A stretch of 34,700 nt of DNA from Acidobacteriota bacterium (lineage in GTDB: Bacteria > Acidobacteriota > Terriglobia > Terriglobales > Acidobacteriaceae), in contig JAJXWS010000035.1 of assembly GCA_021781495.1 (NCBI GenBank), positions 1 through 34,700 of the forward strand. Reading direction: 5' to 3'. Each line of letters starts with the position of its first letter. The stretch's first letter is position 1. The position numbers and the translations under genes were made by a program. The notes below the pieces were generated by a model. It was not told where the DNA came from. It saw only the letters and a list, made by a program, of their open reading frames with translations, and ran no database searches. Shown piece after piece: positions 4,513 to 15,910 of the stretch.

Positions 4513-5757
4513 CTATTCGTAGCGCAGCGCCTCAATGGGGTCCAGGTTGGCGGCGCGAATTGCGGGGATCATGCCGCTGACCAGCCCGGTCACGGCCAGG
4601 ATGCCCGTGGCGACCACGATGGATAGCGGCGAGATCTTCAGGTAGATATCCGCGGCTTCGGCATTCAGCGCAATCTGGCTGTAGAACGGAATGCGCCCGA
4701 CGAGCACGGAGACGAGATAGGCCAGCGCGATGCCGCTGGCGCCGCCCACGCCGGTGATGACGAACGCCTCCGCCAGAAACTGCAGCAGGATGTGACGCCG
4801 TCGCGCGCCCAGCGCTTTCTCCACGCCGATTTCGCGCGTGCGCTGCTGCACCGCCACCAGCATGATGTTCATGAGGCCGATGCCCGCAATGCCCAGCGTT
4901 AACGCGCCCACCAGCGACAGCAGCACCTGAAGCGCGATGGTGAGAATCTGGAACTGGTGCAGCTGCGTCATCAGGTTGGCAACGTAGATGGCGTTGTGAT
5001 CGGCGGGGCGGAAGTGATGCGCGGCCGCGAGCGTCTCGCGCATGTCTTTCTCCACGAGCTGATAGTTGCCGCGATAGTTGAGCCAGATGCCGTCAAGGTA
5101 CTTGGTGTCCTTCAGGTCGCTCATGGTGCTGAAGGGGATGTAGATCTGGCGGTTGCGGTCGTTGTTCTCGCCGCCCTCCTGCATCTTGGGGCTGAGCACG
5201 CCCACGATGGTGAAGAGCACGCCGTTGAGCCGGATGGTCTGGCCCACGGCCCATCCGCCGGAGAAGAGCTTGGCCTTCGACTCAGAGCCGATGACGCAGA
5301 CGTGCGCGCGCTGCTCGTCCTCGGCGCCGTTGAAGAAGCGGCCCTGCCCTACACCCAGGCTCCATATCTCGTTGAAGTAGGAACGGACGCCATGCACGGT
5401 CCACGTGTAGCTATGCAGATCGTTCTGCACGGTCACGTCCTTCATCACGTCCGGCGAGACGTGCATGACGCCGGGTATGGTGTTGGCGAGCCGGTCCACA
5501 TCGTCCTGCGTGAAGCGCACCTGCACACCGGATTTTTCTCCGCCGGCCTGCTGGCTGGTGCGTCCCGGAAAGGTGCCGATGATGTTGGTACCCCACTCGG
5601 CAAAGATGGCCTCAATGGCGCGGCTGAAGCCTGCTCCGTAGGCCAGCAGCAGCACGACGGTGGCGATGCCCCAGGCCATGCCGCCCATGGTGATGGCTGT
5701 GCGGCGGCGGTTGTAGATCATCGCCTCCCATGCCTGGCCCCAGATGTCTTTGAACAT
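4513..5757 (-). CDS. MacB/FtsX-type ABC transporter permease (second of pair)
   Basis: The protein has 414 aa, starting at the ATG at 5757; AAAGGA sits about 6 nt upstream on the coding strand, and the open frame upstream to 5799 is not needed. The layout is that of MacB-type permeases: an N-terminal TM helix (about residues 20-42), a periplasmic MacB_PCD domain of about 220 residues, then three C-terminal TM helices forming the FtsX domain. The cytosolic coupling segment QQRTREIGVEKALGARRRHIL and the terminal LDPIEALRYE are family signatures. Such proteins use ATP-driven movements in the periplasm to export or extract substrates (macrolides, lipoproteins, toxins). It follows a paralogous permease by 54 bp, and no ATPase or membrane-fusion gene is adjacent. 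The substrate is unknown. Confidence 0.92.
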   Translation of the reverse strand: MFKDIWGQAWEAMIYNRRRTAITMGGMAWGIATVVLLLAYGAGFSRAIEAIFAEWGTNIIGTFPGRTSQQAGGEKSGVQVRFTQDDVDRLANTIPGVMHVSPDVMKDVTVQNDLHSYTWTVHGVRSYFNEIWSLGVGQGRFFNGAEDEQRAHVCVIGSESKAKLFSGGWAVGQTIRLNGVLFTIVGVLSPKMQEGGENNDRNRQIYIPFSTMSDLKDTKYLDGIWLNYRGNYQLVEKDMRETLAAAHHFRPADHNAIYVANLMTQLHQFQILTIALQVLLSLVGALTLGIAGIGLMNIMLVAVQQRTREIGVEKALGARRRHILLQFLAEAFVITGVGGASGIALAYLVSVLVGRIPFYSQIALNAEAADIYLKISPLSIVVATGILAVTGLVSGMIPAIRAANLDPIEALRYE

Positions 5758-5811
5758 GGCCGATCCTTTCGCTTCCGCTGTTCCGTTTCCGCCGTGCACG
5801 GCTCCTAAAAA

Positions 5812-7065
5812 CTACTCGCGGCGCAGCGCCTCAATGGGGTCAAGGGCCGCGGCTTTGCTGGCCGGATACAGGCCCGCCGCGATTCCGCTGAGCACCAGTG
5901 AGCCCAGCGCCAGCGCGGCCGACCACGGCACCAGCCGCGGCGGATCCCAGCCGGGCATCTTGCCTGTGAGGGCCTCCTGCAGCAGCGCCATGAATCCGGC
6001 GGAGAGCGCGATTCCGATGATTCCGCTGAGGCCGGTGAGCAGCAGGCCCTCCCAGAAGAACTGCGACAGGATGGAGCGGCGGGTGGCGCCCAGAGCCTTC
6101 AGCAGGCCGATCTCGCTGGTGCGCTCTGTGACAGCTACCAGCATGATGTTGATGATGCCCACCGCGCCCAGCCCGAGCGTGACAATACCCACGCCGCCGA
6201 GGAAGATATCCATCGCTGTAAAGATGGCACCGATCATCTTCTCTTCCTGGATGGTGTCCCACTCGTTGAAGGCATCTTTCATGGCGGGGTCAAAGCCGTG
6301 GCGGCTGGCGATGACGCGATGCACCGCCGCCAGGGCGGCGTCGATCTCGCCCTTGGTGGCGGGCTGATACTGGATGGAGGTCAGCGCGTCCTGAGCGATG
6401 TTGTCGCCCTTGAGCGGGAACAGGCGCTGCATGGTCGTGACGGGAACGTAGACCTTCTGGTCGTCATAGTCGTTGTTGCCGCGGCTGATTTTGCCCACGG
6501 AGCCGACCACGGTGAAAGCCGTGCCGTTGATGGTGATGGTTTCGCCCAGCATGGGCCGGCCGTTGAACAAGAGCGTTGAGGCTTTGAAGCCAAGCACGGC
6601 AACCCGCCGCTCGTTGGCAACGTCCGCATCGTCAATAAAGCGGCCGGAGGCCATGGGGATAAAGCGCACGGCGGTGTAGTTGGGCTCCACGCCAGTGACG
6701 TGGCTCGACGTATTGGCCCACTGGCTGACTTCATACAGGTCTGACCGGCCGAGCTCGACCGTGACCGCGCGCAGCTCGCGCAACTGGCGCATGGCGTTGG
6801 CATCGCCCATGGTGAGCTGATACGGACGCATGCCGGTGTGCTGGTTGGCCACGGCGGGAATGGTGCCGTTGAACATCATCACCAGATCATTGCCCAGGGT
6901 GGCCAGCTGCCGGTGCTGGCCGCTGCGGAAGCCCTCGCCGAGCCCCACCAGCACCAGCAGCGAGCCTACCCCCCAGGCAATCCCGAACATGGTAAGAAAA
7001 CTGCGCAGCTTGTTTGCGGCGATGGCGCGAAATACCTGACCGAGCGTGTCTGTGAAGGTTTGCAT
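5812..7065 (-). CDS. MacB/FtsX-type ABC transporter permease (first of pair)
   Basis: The protein has 417 aa from the ATG at 7065 (…MQTFTDTLGQVF…). The frame stays open upstream to 7305, but that part overlaps the dehydrogenase gene in another frame and has no permease character. A GGAG lies 13 nt before the ATG. The N-terminal TM (about residues 20-45, FLTMFGIAWGVGSLLVLVG) is followed by a periplasmic domain and three C-terminal TMs. The coupling segment TERTSEIGLLKALGATRRSIL and terminal LDPIEALRRE match the downstream paralogue. Together they could form a heterodimeric permease. No ABC ATPase lies beside the pair: upstream is a 3-hydroxyacyl-CoA dehydrogenase and downstream is a convergent gene. 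The ATPase must come from elsewhere in the genome. Confidence 0.92.
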   Translation of the reverse strand: MQTFTDTLGQVFRAIAANKLRSFLTMFGIAWGVGSLLVLVGLGEGFRSGQHRQLATLGNDLVMMFNGTIPAVANQHTGMRPYQLTMGDANAMRQLRELRAVTVELGRSDLYEVSQWANTSSHVTGVEPNYTAVRFIPMASGRFIDDADVANERRVAVLGFKASTLLFNGRPMLGETITINGTAFTVVGSVGKISRGNNDYDDQKVYVPVTTMQRLFPLKGDNIAQDALTSIQYQPATKGEIDAALAAVHRVIASRHGFDPAMKDAFNEWDTIQEEKMIGAIFTAMDIFLGGVGIVTLGLGAVGIINIMLVAVTERTSEIGLLKALGATRRSILSQFFWEGLLLTGLSGIIGIALSAGFMALLQEALTGKMPGWDPPRLVPWSAALALGSLVLSGIAAGLYPASKAAALDPIEALRRE

Positions 7066-7162
7066 GGCCGTTTCGCGCTCCACCGCGCTTGCAAACCAGT
7101 ACGCAGATGCGCCGGCCCCGGTTCCCCGGGGCGGCGGCGAATCGAAAGAGCGCGCTCCGCCG

Positions 7163-8020
7163 CTACTGCGGATAGGTGTAGAAGCCGCGGCCGGACTTGC
7201 GGCCCAGCCAGCCGGCATCCACCATGCGCACCAGCAGCGGGCAGGGGCGATACTTGGGATCGCCGTAGCCCTCCTGCAGCACGCGCAGGATATCCATGCA
7301 CACATCCAGCCCGATGAAGTCCGCCAGCGTGAGCGGGCCCATGGGATGCGCCATGCCCAGCTTGAAGACCTGATCGACAGCCTCCGGCGCGGCCACTCCC
7401 TCCATCACGGCAAAGGCCGCCTCATTGATGAGCGGCATCAGCACGCGGTTTGAGACGAAGCCCGGAGCGTCATGCACCTCCACGGGCGTCTTGCCCAGGG
7501 GCGCGGCCAGCGCATGCGTGGCGGCAAAGGTGGCGTCGCTGGTGGCCAGCCCGCGCACCACCTCCACCAGCGCCATCACCGGCACGGGATTGAAGAAGTG
7601 CATGCCGATGACCTGCGCGGGCCGCTGCGTCTGCGCGGCCAGCCTGGTGATGGAGATGGAGGATGTGTTGGAGGCAAGGATGGCGTCGCGCGGAAGAATA
7701 CGGTCCAGCGAGCGAAAGATCTCGGTCTTCAACTCAAACCGCTCAGGAGCGGCCTCCACCGCGAACTCCGCCTCAGCCAGCGCCTCGCGGTCCACGGTGG
7801 GGGTAATGCGCGCCAGCGCCAGTTCAATCTCCGCCTCGGGCAGCTTGCCTTTGGCGGCCTCACGGCCCAGGTTGGTGCGGATCTGCGCCAGTGCGCGGTC
7901 CAGAAAGCGCTGCTCCACATCGCACAGCAGCACGCGCAGCCCACTGCGCGCAAACACATGGGCGATGCCGGAACCCATGGTTCCGGCACCCACTACGCCA
8001 ACTACCGAAATATCAGCCAT
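7163..8020 (-). CDS. 3-hydroxyacyl-CoA (3-hydroxybutyryl-CoA) dehydrogenase
   Basis: This NAD-dependent enzyme interconverts 3-hydroxyacyl-CoA and 3-ketoacyl-CoA in fatty-acid oxidation or butyrate/PHB-type metabolism. At 285 aa it is the stand-alone (Hbd/PaaH) size, not a FadB fusion. The dinucleotide motif GVVGAGTMGSG is at residues 8-18, ASNTSS at about 116-121, the catalytic histidine in GMHFFNPVPVM (His141), a matching Glu near 153 (LVEVV), and PGFVSNRV at about 187-193. GGGGAG is placed 7-8 nt before the ATG. It is about 97 bp upstream of the permease pair and probably co-transcribed, with no functional link I can see. No thiolase or crotonase gene is adjacent, so acyl-chain preference cannot be told. 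Confidence 0.94.
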   Translation of the reverse strand: MADISVVGVVGAGTMGSGIAHVFARSGLRVLLCDVEQRFLDRALAQIRTNLGREAAKGKLPEAEIELALARITPTVDREALAEAEFAVEAAPERFELKTEIFRSLDRILPRDAILASNTSSISITRLAAQTQRPAQVIGMHFFNPVPVMALVEVVRGLATSDATFAATHALAAPLGKTPVEVHDAPGFVSNRVLMPLINEAAFAVMEGVAAPEAVDQVFKLGMAHPMGPLTLADFIGLDVCMDILRVLQEGYGDPKYRPCPLLVRMVDAGWLGRKSGRGFYTYPQ

Positions 8021-8065: not shown

Positions 8066-9043
8066 TTACTTGCCGCCGGGGTTGTTGCCGGCAGCGGCGG
8101 GGTCATCGAGGCGCATGTTCTGCGTCAGGGTCAGGATGAGCACATCGCCGGTGGCCAGATGCGCCTGTGCATGGCTCACCAGCAGGTGCGTGGTGACCAG
8201 GCCCGCGCCTATCAGGCCGCCCGCCAGTGCTCCGGCAGGACCGCCCAGATACGCGCCGGCAACCGCACCCGCGCCCATCGCGCCGCCATACTCGATGCTG
8301 CCGCGCTTGATGCGCGCGTCGGGAGCGATGACGCCCTCGGACTCGACGTGCGTGTTGGACATCGGCGTGTCCGTCACGCTGGCGTGCAGCCGGAAGCTGC
8401 GGCCGTTGGGCAGGATCACCGTCTCCGGCCGCAGCATGAGAGAGCCATGCCCGGCGAAGTGGCCCGAAGAGACATCCACCACCTTGCCGTCAATCTCAGA
8501 GCCAGCGGGAATCACGACATCGTTGCCCGCGAGCACATCCGAAGCCACGCGGCTGTGGAAGACCTCGCCCTGCTCGGAGAGCGTGCTGGAGAGATCGTTC
8601 AGCAGACGCACGCGGATGTTTGTGCCCTCGGCGAGTTCCCCGGGAGGAAGCGGCGCGGGATGCACGATATCGCTGTCCGGGTCAGGCGCTGCGGCGCGAT
8701 GCTCCAGCACGGGCTGGGCTGCGTCCGGCGTGGAGGCTGGCGCGGGCTGCGCCACCTCAACAATGCCGCCGTCCGTGCCGTCGCGGTAGCCGGATGGCGC
8801 CTCAGCCTGAACCACGGGCGCGGACTGCCGCACAGGCGCTGCCTTCTGCGGAGCGGGCGCTGCCTGCGTGGCCATGGGATGCCCCGCCGGAGGCTTGGGC
8901 GGCGTATCCACCGAGGTTTCGATCGTGTCATTGGCAGGGGGCCGCGACACTCCCTGGTATGGGCCGGACTGGCTGGCCTGCTGCGCCATGAGCGTGGCCG
9001 TGGACGCTGCCAGAAATGCAAAGGTCAACCATTGCCGATTCAT
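8066..9043 (-). CDS. Secreted protein with Pro-rich linker, VirB10/TrbI-like core and glycine zipper
   Basis: The protein has 325 aa. The ATG at 9043 is set by AAGGAG about 7 nt upstream and by a signal peptide (residues 1-20, ending LMAQQ). Next comes a Pro/Ala-rich low-complexity region (about 22-135). A beta-rich domain (about 140-245) reads GTNIRVRLLND…VIPAGSEIDGKVVDV, resembling the C-terminal beta-barrel segment of TrbI/VirB10-like proteins. A glycine-zipper helix (about 260-295, GAMGAGAVAGAYLGGPAG) ends the fold. No conjugation or type IV secretion genes are nearby, so this is probably a stand-alone envelope protein of an acidobacterial family and not a transfer component. A TTCTC/GAGAA inverted repeat overlaps its Shine-Dalgarno. 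The function is unknown; the domain resemblance is by eye only. Confidence 0.75.
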   Translation of the reverse strand: MNRQWLTFAFLAASTATLMAQQASQSGPYQGVSRPPANDTIETSVDTPPKPPAGHPMATQAAPAPQKAAPVRQSAPVVQAEAPSGYRDGTDGGIVEVAQPAPASTPDAAQPVLEHRAAAPDPDSDIVHPAPLPPGELAEGTNIRVRLLNDLSSTLSEQGEVFHSRVASDVLAGNDVVIPAGSEIDGKVVDVSSGHFAGHGSLMLRPETVILPNGRSFRLHASVTDTPMSNTHVESEGVIAPDARIKRGSIEYGGAMGAGAVAGAYLGGPAGALAGGLIGAGLVTTHLLVSHAQAHLATGDVLILTLTQNMRLDDPAAAGNNPGGK

Positions 9044-9162
9044 GCAAATCTCCTTCTCACAAACGAGAATCCCCTGCGTGTTTAGACCCCACCTGCGGAG
9101 AAAAGTTCCAAGCGAAGGGAGTGCGAAACTGGATACGCGCTCTTCGCCCAATGTAATGCTAG

Positions 9163-10761
<1,599 letters not shown>

Positions 10762-10813: not shown

Positions 10814-10886
10814 AGGCGCCACCCGCATCCGTTCCCGAGATCCACTCCTCCCCGCGACACATCGACCTAACACAAGGAAATCACCC

Positions 10887-12494
10887 GTGCCCAAGAAACC
10901 TCTCGTTCTCACCATCCTCGACGGATGGGGTTATCGCGCCGAAACCCAAAACAATGCCATTGCCCTGGCGCGCAAGCCGTCGTATGACAAGCTGCTGCGC
11001 GAGTTTCCGAATACGCTGATTCGCGCCTCTGAGCATTTCGTCGGCCTGCCGGACGGCCAGATGGGCAACAGCGAAGTGGGCCACCTGAACATTGGCGCGG
11101 GCCGCATTGTGCAGATGGACATTACGCGCATTGACGCGCAGATTGCAGCGGGCGAGTTCCAGAAGAATCCCACCATCGTGAAGGCGATGGAGCGCGCGCG
11201 CGAGGGCGGACGCCAGCTGCATCTCTTCGGTCTGGTGTCAGACGGCGGCGTGCACTCGCACCAGGAGCACCTGTATGCGCTGCTGCGCACGGCGCGCGAG
11301 CACGGCGTGGAGCGGGTCTTCGTGCATGCGTTCATGGACGGCCGCGACACCCTGCCCACCTCCGGCGCGGGTTACATTGCGGCGCTGGAACAGAAGATGC
11401 GCGAGTATGGCGTGGGCAAGGTGGCCAGCGTGAGCGGCCGCTACTACGCCATGGACCGCGACAAGCGCTGGGAGCGCGAGCGCAAGGCCTTTGACGCCAT
11501 GGTGCACGGCAAGGCCGAAGGCGGCTCGTACACCAACGCCGTGGAGCGCATCAAGGAGAGCTACAACGGCGGCACCACGGACGAGTTCCTGATTCCTTTC
11601 GTGCTCGTGGATGGCGCGGACCGGCCGGTGGGCGTAATTCGCGATGAGGATGTCTGCATCAACTTCAACTTCCGCGCCGACCGCGCACGCCAGATTACGC
11701 GGGTGCTTGCACGTGAGAGCGGCCTGAACAAGAACGGCGGCCGCGACCTGGAAGGCTGGGAGGCGCTGGACCAGACCATTCCGCGCAACGAGATTCCCAA
11801 GGGCCTGCACTATGTGTGCATGACGCAGTACGACAAGCTCTATGAGCTGCCGCTCGTCATCCTGCCGGAGTCGATGGACAACATCCTCGCCAACATTCTT
11901 TCGCAGAACCACCTGCGCAACCTGCGCGTGGCAGAGACGGAAAAGTTTGCGCACGTCACCTACTTCTTTAACGGCGGCATTGAGACGCCCTTCCCGGGCG
12001 AAGATCGCGTGCTGGTGCCATCGCTGAAGGTGGCCACCTACGACCTGGCTCCGGAGATGAAGGCGGAAGCCATTGGTGACGCCATTGTGAACGCGGTCAA
12101 CGACACGGCCTTTGACCTGGTGGTGGCCAACTTTGCGAATGCCGACATGGTGGGCCACTCCGGCAAGCTGGAGCCGACCATCAAGGCGATTGAGGCCGTG
12201 GATGCTCAGCTTGGCCGCATCTACAAGGCCATCAAGGAACGGAATGGGAACTGGCTCATCACCGCCGACCACGGCAACGCCGAGATGATGGTGGACCCGG
12301 TTTCCGGCGGCCCGCACACCGCGCACACCACCAACCCGGTGCCGCTGATCTACGTGAGCGAAGACGCGGATCGCTTCCGCCTGCGACCCGATGGCTCCCT
12401 GCGCGACATCTCTCCCACGCTGCTGAACCTGCTGCAACTGGGCCTGCCCAAGGAGATGACCGGCGGCGACCTGCGCGTGCCGGTCACGAAGTAG
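10887..12494 (+). CDS. gpmI: 2,3-bisphosphoglycerate-independent phosphoglycerate mutase
   Basis: It interconverts 3- and 2-phosphoglycerate using two Mn ions and a phosphoserine intermediate, feeding enolase encoded just upstream. I place the start at the GTG at 10887 (AAGGAAA about 8 nt before it), giving 535 aa and the standard N-terminus [16 protein letters not shown]; the open frame back to 10788 runs through the hairpin. Metal ligand Asp12 sits in the LDGWG motif and the phospho-acceptor Ser62 in [10 protein letters not shown]. Later motifs are [33 protein letters not shown] and [11 protein letters not shown], all typical of the alkaline-phosphatase-fold catalytic domain. The protein is slightly longer than the usual 510-515 aa. 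A perfect terminator hairpin follows. Confidence 0.97.
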
Positions 12495-12552: not shown

Positions 12553-12824
12553 ACCACGGATCTGGCCAGTACAAGTCAACGAACATACAAGCTCGCATTG
12601 GCTTCCCACCGGCGCGCACCTGCGTTAAACACATCCTTCCATCCTGCGAATAGAATTTCTGCTGCCCATGCACATCGGCGTGCAATACTAATCGTCGTAT
12701 TTTGCCGAGCAAGACCCGCCATCCTTCAACTGCGACCGCACCCTGCTGCAATGCGTGTCTTTTCCTGTCGCCTGGACCGCTTGCGATTTGTACCCGGGGG
12801 ATGCGCTTTGCCCGAGAGAGCACA
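12553..12824 (+). other. Intergenic leader upstream of the spermidine-synthase-like gene
   Basis: Lower in GC than its surroundings. A TAGAAT hexamer at 12651-12656, with TTAAAC at 12625-12630 (20-bp spacing), is a weak promoter candidate. The downstream frame is open from 12702, but the TTG there has no ribosome-binding site and the predicted peptide is Pro/Cys-rich and unlike a protein N-terminus. I see no RNA gene. Confidence 0.3.
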
Positions 12825-15092
12825 ATGACGATGCTGCTGAATCCTGAGACCTCCGCGCCCGACAGACTTCGCGAATCGCTGCCCGGTATGCGGTGGTACT
12901 TCGTCTTCTTTATCCTGTCTGGCTTTTGCGGCCTGTTCTATGAAGTCATCTGGATGCGACTGGCGATGGCCAGCTTTGGCGTAACCACGGCTCTTGCATC
13001 CATCGTGATTTCGATGTTCATGGCAGGTCTGGGCTTTGGCTCGTGGGTCACCGGCAAGATTTGCCGAAGGCATGCGACCCGGAATGGTTCTACCTTTCTG
13101 CGGCTGTATTCCCTGGCGGAATTGCTGATCGGCGTCTCCTCAATTGCAGTGCCTTACCAGCTCAGGCTAGGGCGACTTCTGCTGCAGCATGCGCGCACCT
13201 TCAGCGCATGGCAAAGCTCAAGCTACTACGTTCTGGCTGGAGTCTGGATAGCGATTACGCTCATTCCCTGGTGTACCTGCATGGGAGCGACGTTTCCGCT
13301 GCTGATGGCCGTGATACGCAAGACGGCGCGGCCCGCGTCAGAGCGCTCCTTCAGCTACCTCTACATCGCCAACGTGCTCGGAGCGTTGCTTGGCACGCTC
13401 ACCTCGGCGCTCATCTTGATTGAGTTGCTTGGATTCCAGAAGAGCCTGTTTGTAGCCGGCGGTTTGAATGCTGTGCTGGCAATCCTGGCATTCCGGCTCA
13501 GCAATCGGGTTGATTCGCAGCATGCAGCGGAGATGTCCGCTCCCGCCCGGCCGTTGCAGCCAAAGCTGTACGGACTACCGGGCAAGTCGATACTGGCGTT
13601 CCTCTTCCTTAGCGGACTTGTAAGCATGGGGCTTGAAGTGGTTTGGATTCGCCAGTTCACCCCGTTTCTCGGCAACGTTGTGTACGCCTTTGCCGCGATT
13701 CTAGCGGTGTATCTTTTTGCTACGGTCGTTGGCTCGCAGGATTATCATTCTCACTTTCAGGAGAGCAATCCAGACAAGACCGCCTCTGCCTGGGCCATTC
13801 TTGCCGTGTCGTCCCTACTGCCCGTGTTCGCGGCGGACCCACTGCAACCGCTTTTCGGCAATCTGGAGCTCAGCTTTGTGAGGCTTTCTTCCATTGCGTT
13901 CTTCTGTGCCTTAACCGGCTTTCTTACCCCGATGCTGGTCAATACATGGTCGGCAGGGGATCCGGAACGCGCTGGCACCGCATACGCAGTGAACGTGGTG
14001 GGATCGATTCTCGGACCACTCATAGCAGGCTTCTGGCTCTTACCACAGTTCGGAGAGCGGGGTGCAAGCGGATGCCTTGCCTTGCTCCTCTTTATCCTTG
14101 CGGCTGCGGCCATCTTTCGTCGCACGCCACAGACGAAAACCCGGTTCCTCGCCGATCCGAGACTCAAATTCGCTCTCGCAGTGGTCGCCGCCATCGTGCT
14201 GTTCCGCGCGAGTCGCGACTACGAGACTATCTTTCCGACCCGCGAGGTAAAACGCGATTACACTGCCACCGTGATTGCAACGGGCACGGGATTTCAGCGA
14301 AAGCTTTTCGTCAATGGTGTTGGAATGACCTTCCTTACTCCCATCACCAAGTACATTGCCGATCTTCCGCTGGCGTTCCTCTCCAGGCCGCCTCAGAATG
14401 GCCTTGTCATTTGCTTTGGCATGGGGACCACGTTTCGTTCGATGCTGACGTGGGGTATTCCAACAACCGCAGTCGATCTGGTTCCGAGCGTGCCCAAGAT
14501 GTTCGGCTATTTTCACTCGGACGCGGCCAATGTACTGGCTTCTCCGTTTGCACACGTCGTCGTCGACGATGGGCGACGCTTTCTCGATGGCTCCAATCAG
14601 ATGTATGACGTCATCGTTGTTGATCCGCCGCCGCCACCGGCTGCCGCAGGCTCCAGTCTGCTTTATTCCGAAGAGTTCTACAGCGTGGTCAAAGCGCACT
14701 TGCGGCAGGGCGGAATCTTTCAGACCTGGTATCCCAACGATCAGGATCCAGCGACGACGGTGGCAATTACCAAGGCGCTGGTGAACTCGTTTCCGTACGT
14801 GCGCGCCTTTGAGTCCTTTGACCGCTACGGAATTCATTTTCTCGCCAGCATGCAACCGATTCCGGAGACATCCGCAGCAACCCTGGCTGGGCGCATGCCT
14901 CCTGCCGCCGCACGGGACTTTGTCGAGTGGGGACCGCAAACGGATCCACAACGCCAGTTCCAGGAGGTGCTGTCGCATGAAATCCCCATCGGAAAACTCA
15001 TCGCAAAGAGCCCTCTTACGCCCTCTCTGCGAGATGACCGTCCTGTCAACGAGTACTATTTTCTGCGGAAAATGTTCGGCATCTCGCGTTAA
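12825..15092 (+). CDS. Polytopic membrane protein fused to a spermidine-synthase-like domain
   Basis: The protein has 755 aa. I chose the ATG at 12825; the one at 12831 and upstream in-frame codons are alternatives, and the ribosome-binding site is weak. About 13 hydrophobic segments fill residues 20-480. The motif SGFCGLFYEVIWMR in the first TM recurs as SGLVSMGLEVVWIR near the seventh, pointing to a duplicated six-helix unit. The C-terminal domain has an AdoMet/dcAdoMet-type Rossmann core: ICFGMGTT at about residue 525, AVDLVPS, VVDDGRRFL, then VVDPPPPPAAAG and SEEFYSVV. In true SpeE the last loop reads D-x-x-D-P; here the second Asp is Pro, so aminopropyl transfer is doubtful. Base use looks less GC-rich than neighbouring genes. 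Monocistronic between two terminators. The function is unknown. Confidence 0.85.
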   Translation: MTMLLNPETSAPDRLRESLPGMRWYFVFFILSGFCGLFYEVIWMRLAMASFGVTTALASIVISMFMAGLGFGSWVTGKICRRHATRNGSTFLRLYSLAELLIGVSSIAVPYQLRLGRLLLQHARTFSAWQSSSYYVLAGVWIAITLIPWCTCMGATFPLLMAVIRKTARPASERSFSYLYIANVLGALLGTLTSALILIELLGFQKSLFVAGGLNAVLAILAFRLSNRVDSQHAAEMSAPARPLQPKLYGLPGKSILAFLFLSGLVSMGLEVVWIRQFTPFLGNVVYAFAAILAVYLFATVVGSQDYHSHFQESNPDKTASAWAILAVSSLLPVFAADPLQPLFGNLELSFVRLSSIAFFCALTGFLTPMLVNTWSAGDPERAGTAYAVNVVGSILGPLIAGFWLLPQFGERGASGCLALLLFILAAAAIFRRTPQTKTRFLADPRLKFALAVVAAIVLFRASRDYETIFPTREVKRDYTATVIATGTGFQRKLFVNGVGMTFLTPITKYIADLPLAFLSRPPQNGLVICFGMGTTFRSMLTWGIPTTAVDLVPSVPKMFGYFHSDAANVLASPFAHVVVDDGRRFLDGSNQMYDVIVVDPPPPPAAAGSSLLYSEEFYSVVKAHLRQGGIFQTWYPNDQDPATTVAITKALVNSFPYVRAFESFDRYGIHFLASMQPIPETSAATLAGRMPPAAARDFVEWGPQTDPQRQFQEVLSHEIPIGKLIAKSPLTPSLRDDRPVNEYYFLRKMFGISR

Positions 15093-15231: not shown

Positions 15232-15693
15232 TTATCGCGGGCGCAGGGACTTGATCGAATCCGGCAGGCGCTTCTCCAGCAGCTTGGCGCGCTCGGCCGC
15301 TATGCCGCCGATATAGGTTGGCGCGGGGGTTGCCGTAATCACCAGCAGGAACGCAATCAGCGAGAAGACCAGGCCAGCCACGCCGGCAGACATCAGCATG
15401 TGATACATGTCAGAGATGTCCAGCCCGAGCGTCTTGAAGGCCACGTGCTCCAGCGGCCGGATGTGATACAGCACCGCCAGCGCGAAAAGAAAGAACAGCA
15501 CCGCCAGCGAAGTAAGCACCGCCAGGGTTGCATCCAGGCTGCGATGAAACTTCTGCCGGCCACTGCAGTGGCTGCATTCGGCCAGGTGGCTTTCGTAGTC
15601 CTTGCGCATCTCGGGGTAAAGCCCGGAGATGTCATAACGCCAGCTCGCCAGGATAGCGCCTACCACTCGGTCAGTACAGGGTGTTCTTGCCAT
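15232..15693 (-). CDS. Membrane protein with N-terminal zf-HC2-like zinc finger
   Basis: The protein has 153 aa from the ATG at 15693 (MARTPC…); a start at 15729 is in frame but gives an unusual leader. Near residue 38 is HLAECSHC (H-x3-C-x2-C), the zinc-binding signature of anti-sigma/zf-HC2 domains, after an N-terminal helix. Two TM segments follow (about residues 56-75 and about 99-120). The C-terminal tail is basic and short. Anti-sigma factors of this type usually neighbour an ECF sigma gene, but none is adjacent, so a regulatory role is only a possibility. It converges on the spermidine-synthase-like gene. Confidence 0.7.
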   Translation of the reverse strand: MARTPCTDRVVGAILASWRYDISGLYPEMRKDYESHLAECSHCSGRQKFHRSLDATLAVLTSLAVLFFLFALAVLYHIRPLEHVAFKTLGLDISDMYHMLMSAGVAGLVFSLIAFLLVITATPAPTYIGGIAAERAKLLEKRLPDSIKSLRPR

Positions 15694-15910
15694 AACGGTT
15701 AGACTCACTTTGCATAAGGACGTATTCATCCGCAGCGTTACAGCGCGGCTCTTGCGGCAATGGGATCGTTCTTTGGATGTTCCGCTGGCCGTGCATGATG
15801 CAGCGGAACTTCGCTCAACTTCAGCCTGCTCCGGGACCGGTGCCCGGCATCGCCCATGCCAACCTTACACGGTACTGAGTGAAGCCTCTTACCATTGTAA
15901 CCGAGGTTAC

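Follow-up and report, generated by a model that had tools for sequence, protein, structure and literature searches.

SpeE, the spermidine synthase, is a soluble enzyme that needs decarboxylated S-adenosylmethionine (dcSAM) and has both aspartates of a D-x-x-D loop together with the acid of a GGG(D/E)G motif, which is described as highly conserved and as containing a dcSAM-binding residue (PMC11107197). Loss of that acid separates NHMT (AN4663) of Aspergillus nidulans from the spermidine synthases; NHMT, which had been annotated as a spermidine synthase, carries its spermidine-synthase-like domain after an odd number of helices (PMC10349129). It was identified by gene knock-out and methylates the N-terminal histidine of secreted lytic polysaccharide monooxygenases (PMC10349129). 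Its authors raise a shortage of S-adenosylmethionine (SAM) in the endoplasmic reticulum as something that might hold the enzyme back in a heterologous host, which suggests that the active site faces the lumen; the available part of the article states no topology. For a fungal membrane-aminopropyltransferase fusion, the available part of PMC12803844 gives bacterial proteins as the only non-fungal homologues, and PMC11237479 describes operons in which PspA and DUF350 accompany a spermidine-synthase-like domain that has an N-terminal seven-transmembrane (7TM) domain. In a literature search that covered subscription papers thinly, we found no report of a tested activity for the bacterial fusions with a major facilitator superfamily (MFS) part, no statement on an outward topology or a SAM-using branch, and no match for 'periplasmic methyltransferase'. 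Here we analyse one such fusion gene in a 34,700-nt stretch (the window) of the Acidobacteriota bacterium draft genome GCA_021781495.1, contig JAJXWS010000035.1. The gene product is probably not a spermidine synthase. We tentatively propose a SAM-dependent transferase that works outside the cytoplasm, probably by moving methyl groups, and that may receive its donor through its transporter part, a reading that we regard as a good possibility somewhat short of an even chance.

Family membership and the duplicated membrane part

The fusion gene occupies positions 12825-15092 on the plus strand, as the first-pass annotation of this DNA had it, with an ATG at 12825, a stop codon at 15090-15092 and a product of 755 aa; an alternative TTG start upstream, at 12702, would give 796 aa. 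The product scores 88.4 bits against NF037959, 'fused MFS/spermidine synthase' (cut-off 40), and 31.3 bits against PF01564 (cut-off 22.9). Scores against TIGR00417 (SpeE; 35.5 bits, cut-off 249.55) and NF002956 (PRK03612; 119.1 bits, cut-off 472) are far below the cut-offs. All nine members of the relatives' set A1 match the NF037959 model at E <= 0.001. Since NF037959 already exists as an NCBIfam subfamily, the architecture is not new; it is the conserved architecture of a named family, and the window protein shares it at a score above the curated cut-off.

The membrane part consists of two related six-helix units, at residues 20-240 (12882-13544) and 250-437 (13572-14135). The motif SG..(Y)EV(I/V)W.R occurs once in each, as SGFCGLFYEVIWMR (residues 32-45) and SGLVSMGLEVVWIR (residues 263-276), and profile-profile comparison of the units with hhalign gave a probability of 95.5 and an E-value of 1.6e-8 over 172 columns. 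The duplicated unit and the motif repeated in the first and near the seventh helix, both pointed out in the first-pass annotation, are thus real. Together the units form one MFS fold of 12 helices in two halves. No MFS Pfam model matched the window protein by sequence. An AlphaFold2 model built from a 68-row alignment (pLDDT 91.4, pTM 0.90) was compared with known structures using VIA-align, and residues 16-433 resembled SLC37A4 (Z 30.1, rmsd 3.4, 364 aligned), with further matches to VMAT2 and NorA. The earlier term 'transporter' therefore holds for the fold and not for an activity.

The C-terminal domain, residues 473-755 (14241-15089), has the spermidine-synthase fold. Aminopropyltransferases were the top Foldseek matches (1uir_B, E 3.9e-10, TMt 0.67), and VIA-align matched thermospermine synthase 6bq2_B (Z 25.6, rmsd 3.2, 260 aligned); families that fail to appear in these match lists are not thereby excluded. 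Across the 68 aligned rows 28 columns are invariant, and 21 of these, including E99, E271, R276, N183 and N390, fall in the membrane part, which argues that it does more than hold the protein in the membrane. Its simplest role would be transport of a donor or a product.

Active-site residues and the source of decarboxylated SAM

The domain shares its fold with SpeE, and two features by which SpeE is recognised, the acid of GGG(D/E)G and the D-x-x-D loop, are absent from it. Residue counts below refer to 86 distinct complete orthologs unless stated otherwise. In the alignment, D600-PPPPP (residues 600-604 of the loop, 14622-14636) falls on the D-x-x-D-P catalytic loop of SpeE, with P603 at the position of the second aspartate. 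The first aspartate, D600, is present in 86/86 and the second in 0/86: P603 is conserved in 84, the other two having N and F, and the neighbouring prolines P601, P602 and P604 are found in 84, 81 and 86. The loss of the second catalytic aspartate, which the first-pass annotation had read from this one gene, is thus clade-wide, and decay of the loop confined to one gene was rejected as an explanation because the loop is conserved across the clade. 'Altered' describes the loop correctly by comparison with SpeE but does not mark a peculiarity of this protein, since such loops are usual among its relatives; 20 rows of distant members have others, such as EPPPP, DSIHP and DIILP.

A second acidic residue, at the donor site, had escaped the earlier reading. 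In the donor-site loop GMGTT (residues 532-536, 14418-14432), T535 stands at the acid position of GGG(D/E)G in all 86 orthologs, and neither the 20 distant rows (L014-L033) nor L002, a paralogue in the same genome, has Asp or Glu in that column. NHMT likewise has the acid of GxG(D/E)G replaced, by Ile where the window protein has Thr. Because T535 occupies the dcSAM-binding acid position, the change concerns the donor and not the acceptor alone. Other parts of the site are conserved, including D/E551, D582 and R584 (86/86 each), D581 and W635 (85/86 each) and, with one gap each, N742 and E743 (85/86). D581 to R584 form a donor-site motif, D-D-G-R (14565-14576), and the last two residues belong to a C-terminal signature, DDRPVNEY (residues 737-744, 15033-15056). 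The domain retains the nucleoside-binding and catalytic frame, namely GxG, D/E551, D582, R584 and D600. Since this frame is kept while donor and acceptor residues are altered, catalysis with a SAM-type donor seems indicated. Distant NF037959 members differ from the window orthologs, which have a D-P-P-P-P loop one residue longer and an NEY C-terminus. The orthologs are a distinct branch of the named family, with an unusual prediction that can be tested.

The first-pass annotation had also pointed to the genome's speD. PF02675 (AdoMet decarboxylase) had no match in the draft genome, and the same search was positive in 8 of 14 control genomes. PF01536 had no match either, but no control matched it, so a class 2 enzyme may be present. 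With regard to another source of polyamines, a single PF02784 match could be a diaminopimelate decarboxylase. In the genus, PF02675 is found in 3/80 genomes and in 1 of the 14 that carry an ortholog. In a phylum sample of 297 genomes, 98 carry PF02675. Ten have an ortholog at E <= 1.2e-140, two of them (G051 and G063) with PF02675, and these ten by themselves show little. When relatives are counted at E <= 1e-20, PF02675 accompanies them in 26/92 genomes against 98/297 overall, which indicates no positive link between the relatives and speD. Of four plasmid records that carry a fusion gene, the three annotated ones have no speD beside it in their incomplete gene tables, and none was found in the stretch opened of the fourth.

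The stronger contrast comes from NF002956. This family resembles the window protein in having the same domain, one six-helix unit plus an extra helix, and the same predicted topology; it differs in having a single unit, in keeping GGGDG and D-x-x-D-P, and in co-occurring with PF02675. It was found in 52/297 phylum genomes at E <= 1e-90 (51 above the cut-off), and 51 of these 52 carry PF02675, the exception being G016. Both motifs are intact in all 25 of its loci that were read, out of 53 matches. The form that keeps both acids thus travels with a source of dcSAM, and the form that has lost them does not. Because the dcSAM determinants and PF02675 are both lacking, SAM itself is the likely donor.

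Predicted topology and proposed function

Hydropathy analysis of the window protein gave 13 helices, one more than the MFS fold; the extra helix had escaped the first-pass annotation. The likely thirteenth transmembrane helix (residues 445-462, 14157-14210) is present in the AlphaFold2 model, and a hydropathy peak occurs there in 85/86 orthologs; in 80 of those 85 the preceding loop is net positive. The stretch lacking D, E, K and R at this helix has a median length of 17 residues over the 86 orthologs and is at least 15 residues long in 82. After mapping of the window helix borders onto the orthologs, lysine plus arginine averaged 19.0 in the even loops and 7.3 in the odd loops, and the even loops had more in 86/86. 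Among the distant members (set A2), peaks for helices 12 and 13 are present in 11/11, total helix counts by simple hydropathy range from 13 to 15, and the even loops carry more charge in all five proteins with a count of 13. Helix number and the positive-inside rule therefore predict a catalytic domain outside the cytoplasm, to which the thirteenth helix would likely carry it.

Two related architectures give the same prediction. The second fusion in the genome, L002 (G000:C106, 1-3996, minus strand), has seven helices (six plus one), the spermidine-synthase-like domain and then one plus six helices (model pLDDT 81.7, pTM 0.84). In L002 and 19 genus relatives, the loop charge alternates in a way that places the domain outside, with means of 3.0 before helix 7 and 3.3 after helix 8. 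Since the extra flanking helices would be needless for a cytoplasmic insert in the central loop, the domain of L002 would lie outside. In NF002956, loop charges before the domain are 1.8, 0.0, 3.6, 0.3, 3.9, 1.0 and 1.8 (25 sequences), again predicting the domain outside. NF002956 aligns with window residues 256-633, and the profile of its membrane part matches unit 1 at an independent E-value (i-E) of 8.7e-7 and unit 2 weakly (i-E 0.0096). The window protein thus looks like an NF002956 core with one further six-helix unit, making a full MFS fold in one chain; pairing of the seven-helix proteins into a comparable whole is speculation. In most of the 20 aligned L002 relatives, the active-site loop has an acid at the second position (PDP or PEP) and varies at the first, the reverse of the window gene.

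Under the proposed mechanism, the 12 helices would form an MFS-type carrier and the thirteenth would lead to a domain on the periplasmic face. This domain would bind ordinary SAM and most likely methylate an envelope component, which could be a protein N-terminus or side chain, a lipid or a glycan, and the MFS part would bring SAM out or return S-adenosylhomocysteine (SAH). Methyl transfer is the commonest use of SAM. The nearest parallel is NHMT, a fungal protein with seven helices where the window protein has 12 + 1, the likeness being one of description and not of sequence comparison.

Several points weigh against this proposal. The uncharged stretch of helix 13 in the window protein is only 12 residues long (K448-R461), the shortest of the 86, and R461 and R464 lie at the outer end of the helix; by the same measure, two of the twelve MFS helices of this protein have 14 and 16. 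A helix 13 lying in the interface would leave the domain in the cytoplasm. For L002, two weak hydropathy peaks, at 108-126 and 444-462, were not counted as transmembrane, and by simple hydropathy 3 of the 11 distant members (L014, L019 and L031) have more charge in the odd loops, which may stem from miscounted helices. The genome is a draft, 95.75% complete in 197 contigs, and one of the three genus genomes that carry PF02675, G305, has it together with an ortholog. Methyl transfer as the reaction is suggested by the lost dcSAM features and one remote analogue, and the same residues would suit an enzyme that moves the 3-amino-3-carboxypropyl group of SAM. The AlphaFold2 models are ligand-free, and the periplasm is not known to contain free SAM. 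Neighbourhood clustering of 85 loci (the best 80 of 205 stretches encoding a relative in a scan of GTDB genomes, the window and four genus loci) gave no conserved gene partner that names a substrate.

A plain spermidine synthase held by an unusual membrane anchor, with a replacement from elsewhere for the lost aspartate, is highly improbable. The PF01564 score and the leading place of aminopropyltransferases in Foldseek agree with such an enzyme, but TIGR00417 reaches only 35.5 of the 249.55 bits required, PF02675 is missing and two acids are lost. Bacterial homologues of the fungal membrane-aminopropyltransferase fusion, which may or may not belong to the present subfamily, are moreover described in the available part of PMC12803844, citing Li et al. 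2019, as experimentally without a role in spermidine or spermine synthesis. An aminopropyltransferase that uses dcSAM on a substrate other than putrescine, so that an envelope component is aminopropylated, would have the same fold. Such a role has been proposed for bacterial membrane fusions with a link to AdoMet decarboxylase, and PMC11237479 discusses aminopropylation of other substrates in connection with polyamine genes, 7TM fusions included, that lie beside PspA and DUF350. PF02675 does accompany an ortholog in 2/10 phylum and 1/14 genus genomes. This activity is nevertheless unlikely, given that PF02675 is missing from the window genome and from 13 of the 14 ortholog-bearing genus genomes and that both acids of the dcSAM and amine sites, which the PF02675-linked NF002956 keeps, are gone in 86/86. 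The same losses support the part of the first-pass annotation that had the enzyme transferring another group; nothing was found in favour of the polyamine-like ligands that it also suggested.

A catalytically silent domain, acting as a SAM/SAH or nucleoside sensor or as a gate for the MFS transporter, would account for the altered loop and for a membrane part at least as conserved as the domain (21/28 invariant columns). Chemistry is suggested, however, by D600, D582, R584, T535 and P604 in 86/86 and W635 in 85/86, and we consider a silent domain quite unlikely; with D582, R584, D600 and P604 fully kept, the pure membrane sensor of the first-pass annotation becomes less likely. In a nicotianamine-synthase-like transfer, an envelope or metal-binding molecule would receive the 3-amino-3-carboxypropyl group and the product would leave through the MFS part; this reading shares with methyl transfer the donor SAM and the lost dcSAM determinants. 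An MFS exporter beside a nicotianamine-synthase-like enzyme is a known arrangement for metallophores. The domain matches aminopropyltransferases instead, with no nicotianamine-synthase-like match among the matches listed, which does not exclude one, and no recurrent metallophore gene partner was noticed in the 85 loci, so that we rate this transfer as distinctly improbable.

If the window protein is a periplasm-facing, SAM-using transferase, the name 'spermidine synthase' misleads for relatives in 92/297 phylum genomes, and the NCBI family name probably does mislead. Methyl transfer outside the cytoplasm, with its need for a SAM export route, would then become directly testable in a bacterium. 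To the named family the present analysis adds the clade-wide loss of the acids, the speD contrast with NF002956 and a predicted outside topology with which the paralogue L002 agrees. A wider proposal, which we consider rather unlikely, is that every member of the superfamily (NF002956, NF037959 and the L002 type) is a transferase that acts outside the cytoplasm and brings its nucleoside donor through the membrane with its own MFS or half-MFS part, dcSAM in the speD-linked branch and SAM in the branch of the window gene. If true, it would provide a general route for SAM-type chemistry outside bacterial inner membranes.

Distribution, base composition and neighbouring genes

Orthologs of at least 48% identity occur in 14/80 genus genomes, and relatives at E <= 1e-20 in 92/297 genomes of the phylum sample. 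By record titles counted by eye, the best 80 of the 205 stretches comprise 67 from Acidobacteriota and 13 from other groups (Elusimicrobia 5, Rokubacteria 4, and Geobacter, Chloroflexi, Planctomycetota and Rudaea 1 each). An ortholog with 63% identity in the best segment (L105) comes from Acidicapsa dinghuensis strain 4GSKX, whose record bears no mark of a metagenome assembly.

The fusion gene has a GC content of 57.1% and a GC at third codon positions (GC3) of 0.66. GC3 is 0.84-0.86 in eno, gpmI, the kinase gene and ribA, with intermediate values for the 165-aa gene (0.75), the gene at 8066-9217 (0.78) and the beta-lactamase-fold gene (0.81), so the lower GC than in the neighbours that had been noted earlier is borne out. 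The GC of the gene minus that of its flanks is -0.068, second lowest among 64 loci (mean +0.005), and the difference is about -0.06 at L103, L106 and L112. The upstream neighbour is gpmI (10884-12494, plus strand; name read by eye), and downstream lies the 165-aa gene (15232-15729, minus strand), whose product has an HLAECxxC motif, a hydrophobic C-terminal half and no Pfam match. The latter gene adjoins gpmI in several genus members. At four genus loci (L035, L039, L040 and L046), the order is gpmI, 165-aa gene and beta-lactamase-fold gene, and the fusion gene is absent; in one of these genomes, G298, contig coordinates put an ortholog about 2.6 Mb away from gpmI. Gain of the fusion gene by the lineage from a lower-GC source fits these observations.

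Near relatives of the window share gpmI, the 165-aa gene and the beta-lactamase-fold gene; beyond these, the recurring neighbours in the 85 loci were a MurJ-like gene (5 loci) and a CDP-alcohol phosphatidyltransferase gene (3 loci), both named by eye. The MurJ-like gene lies within 2 kb downstream on the same strand at 4 of its 5 loci; at four loci, a MurJ-like flippase gene (L142 10273-11958 and similar) starts 62-170 bp after the ortholog. The neighbourhood was rejected as a clue to the substrate, the recurring partners being too few.

The ortholog of G071 is in two parts, C54:29640-31124 and C16:67178-67930, on two contigs and with one in-frame stop codon each, and is either a broken gene or an assembly fault. 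Two chromosome-sized records, of about 2.17 Mb, appear under Neisseria gonorrhoeae plasmids, probably through misfiling. On the Comamonadaceae plasmid CP099604.1 (L205, 1-10192), a relative lies at 4597-7206 with a TonB-dependent receptor gene upstream. The genes downstream of it encode a peptidylprolyl isomerase, a HupE/UreJ protein, a 2-oxoglutarate (2OG)-Fe(II) oxygenase and a PCu(A)C copper chaperone, and the row may be a metal-linked operon.

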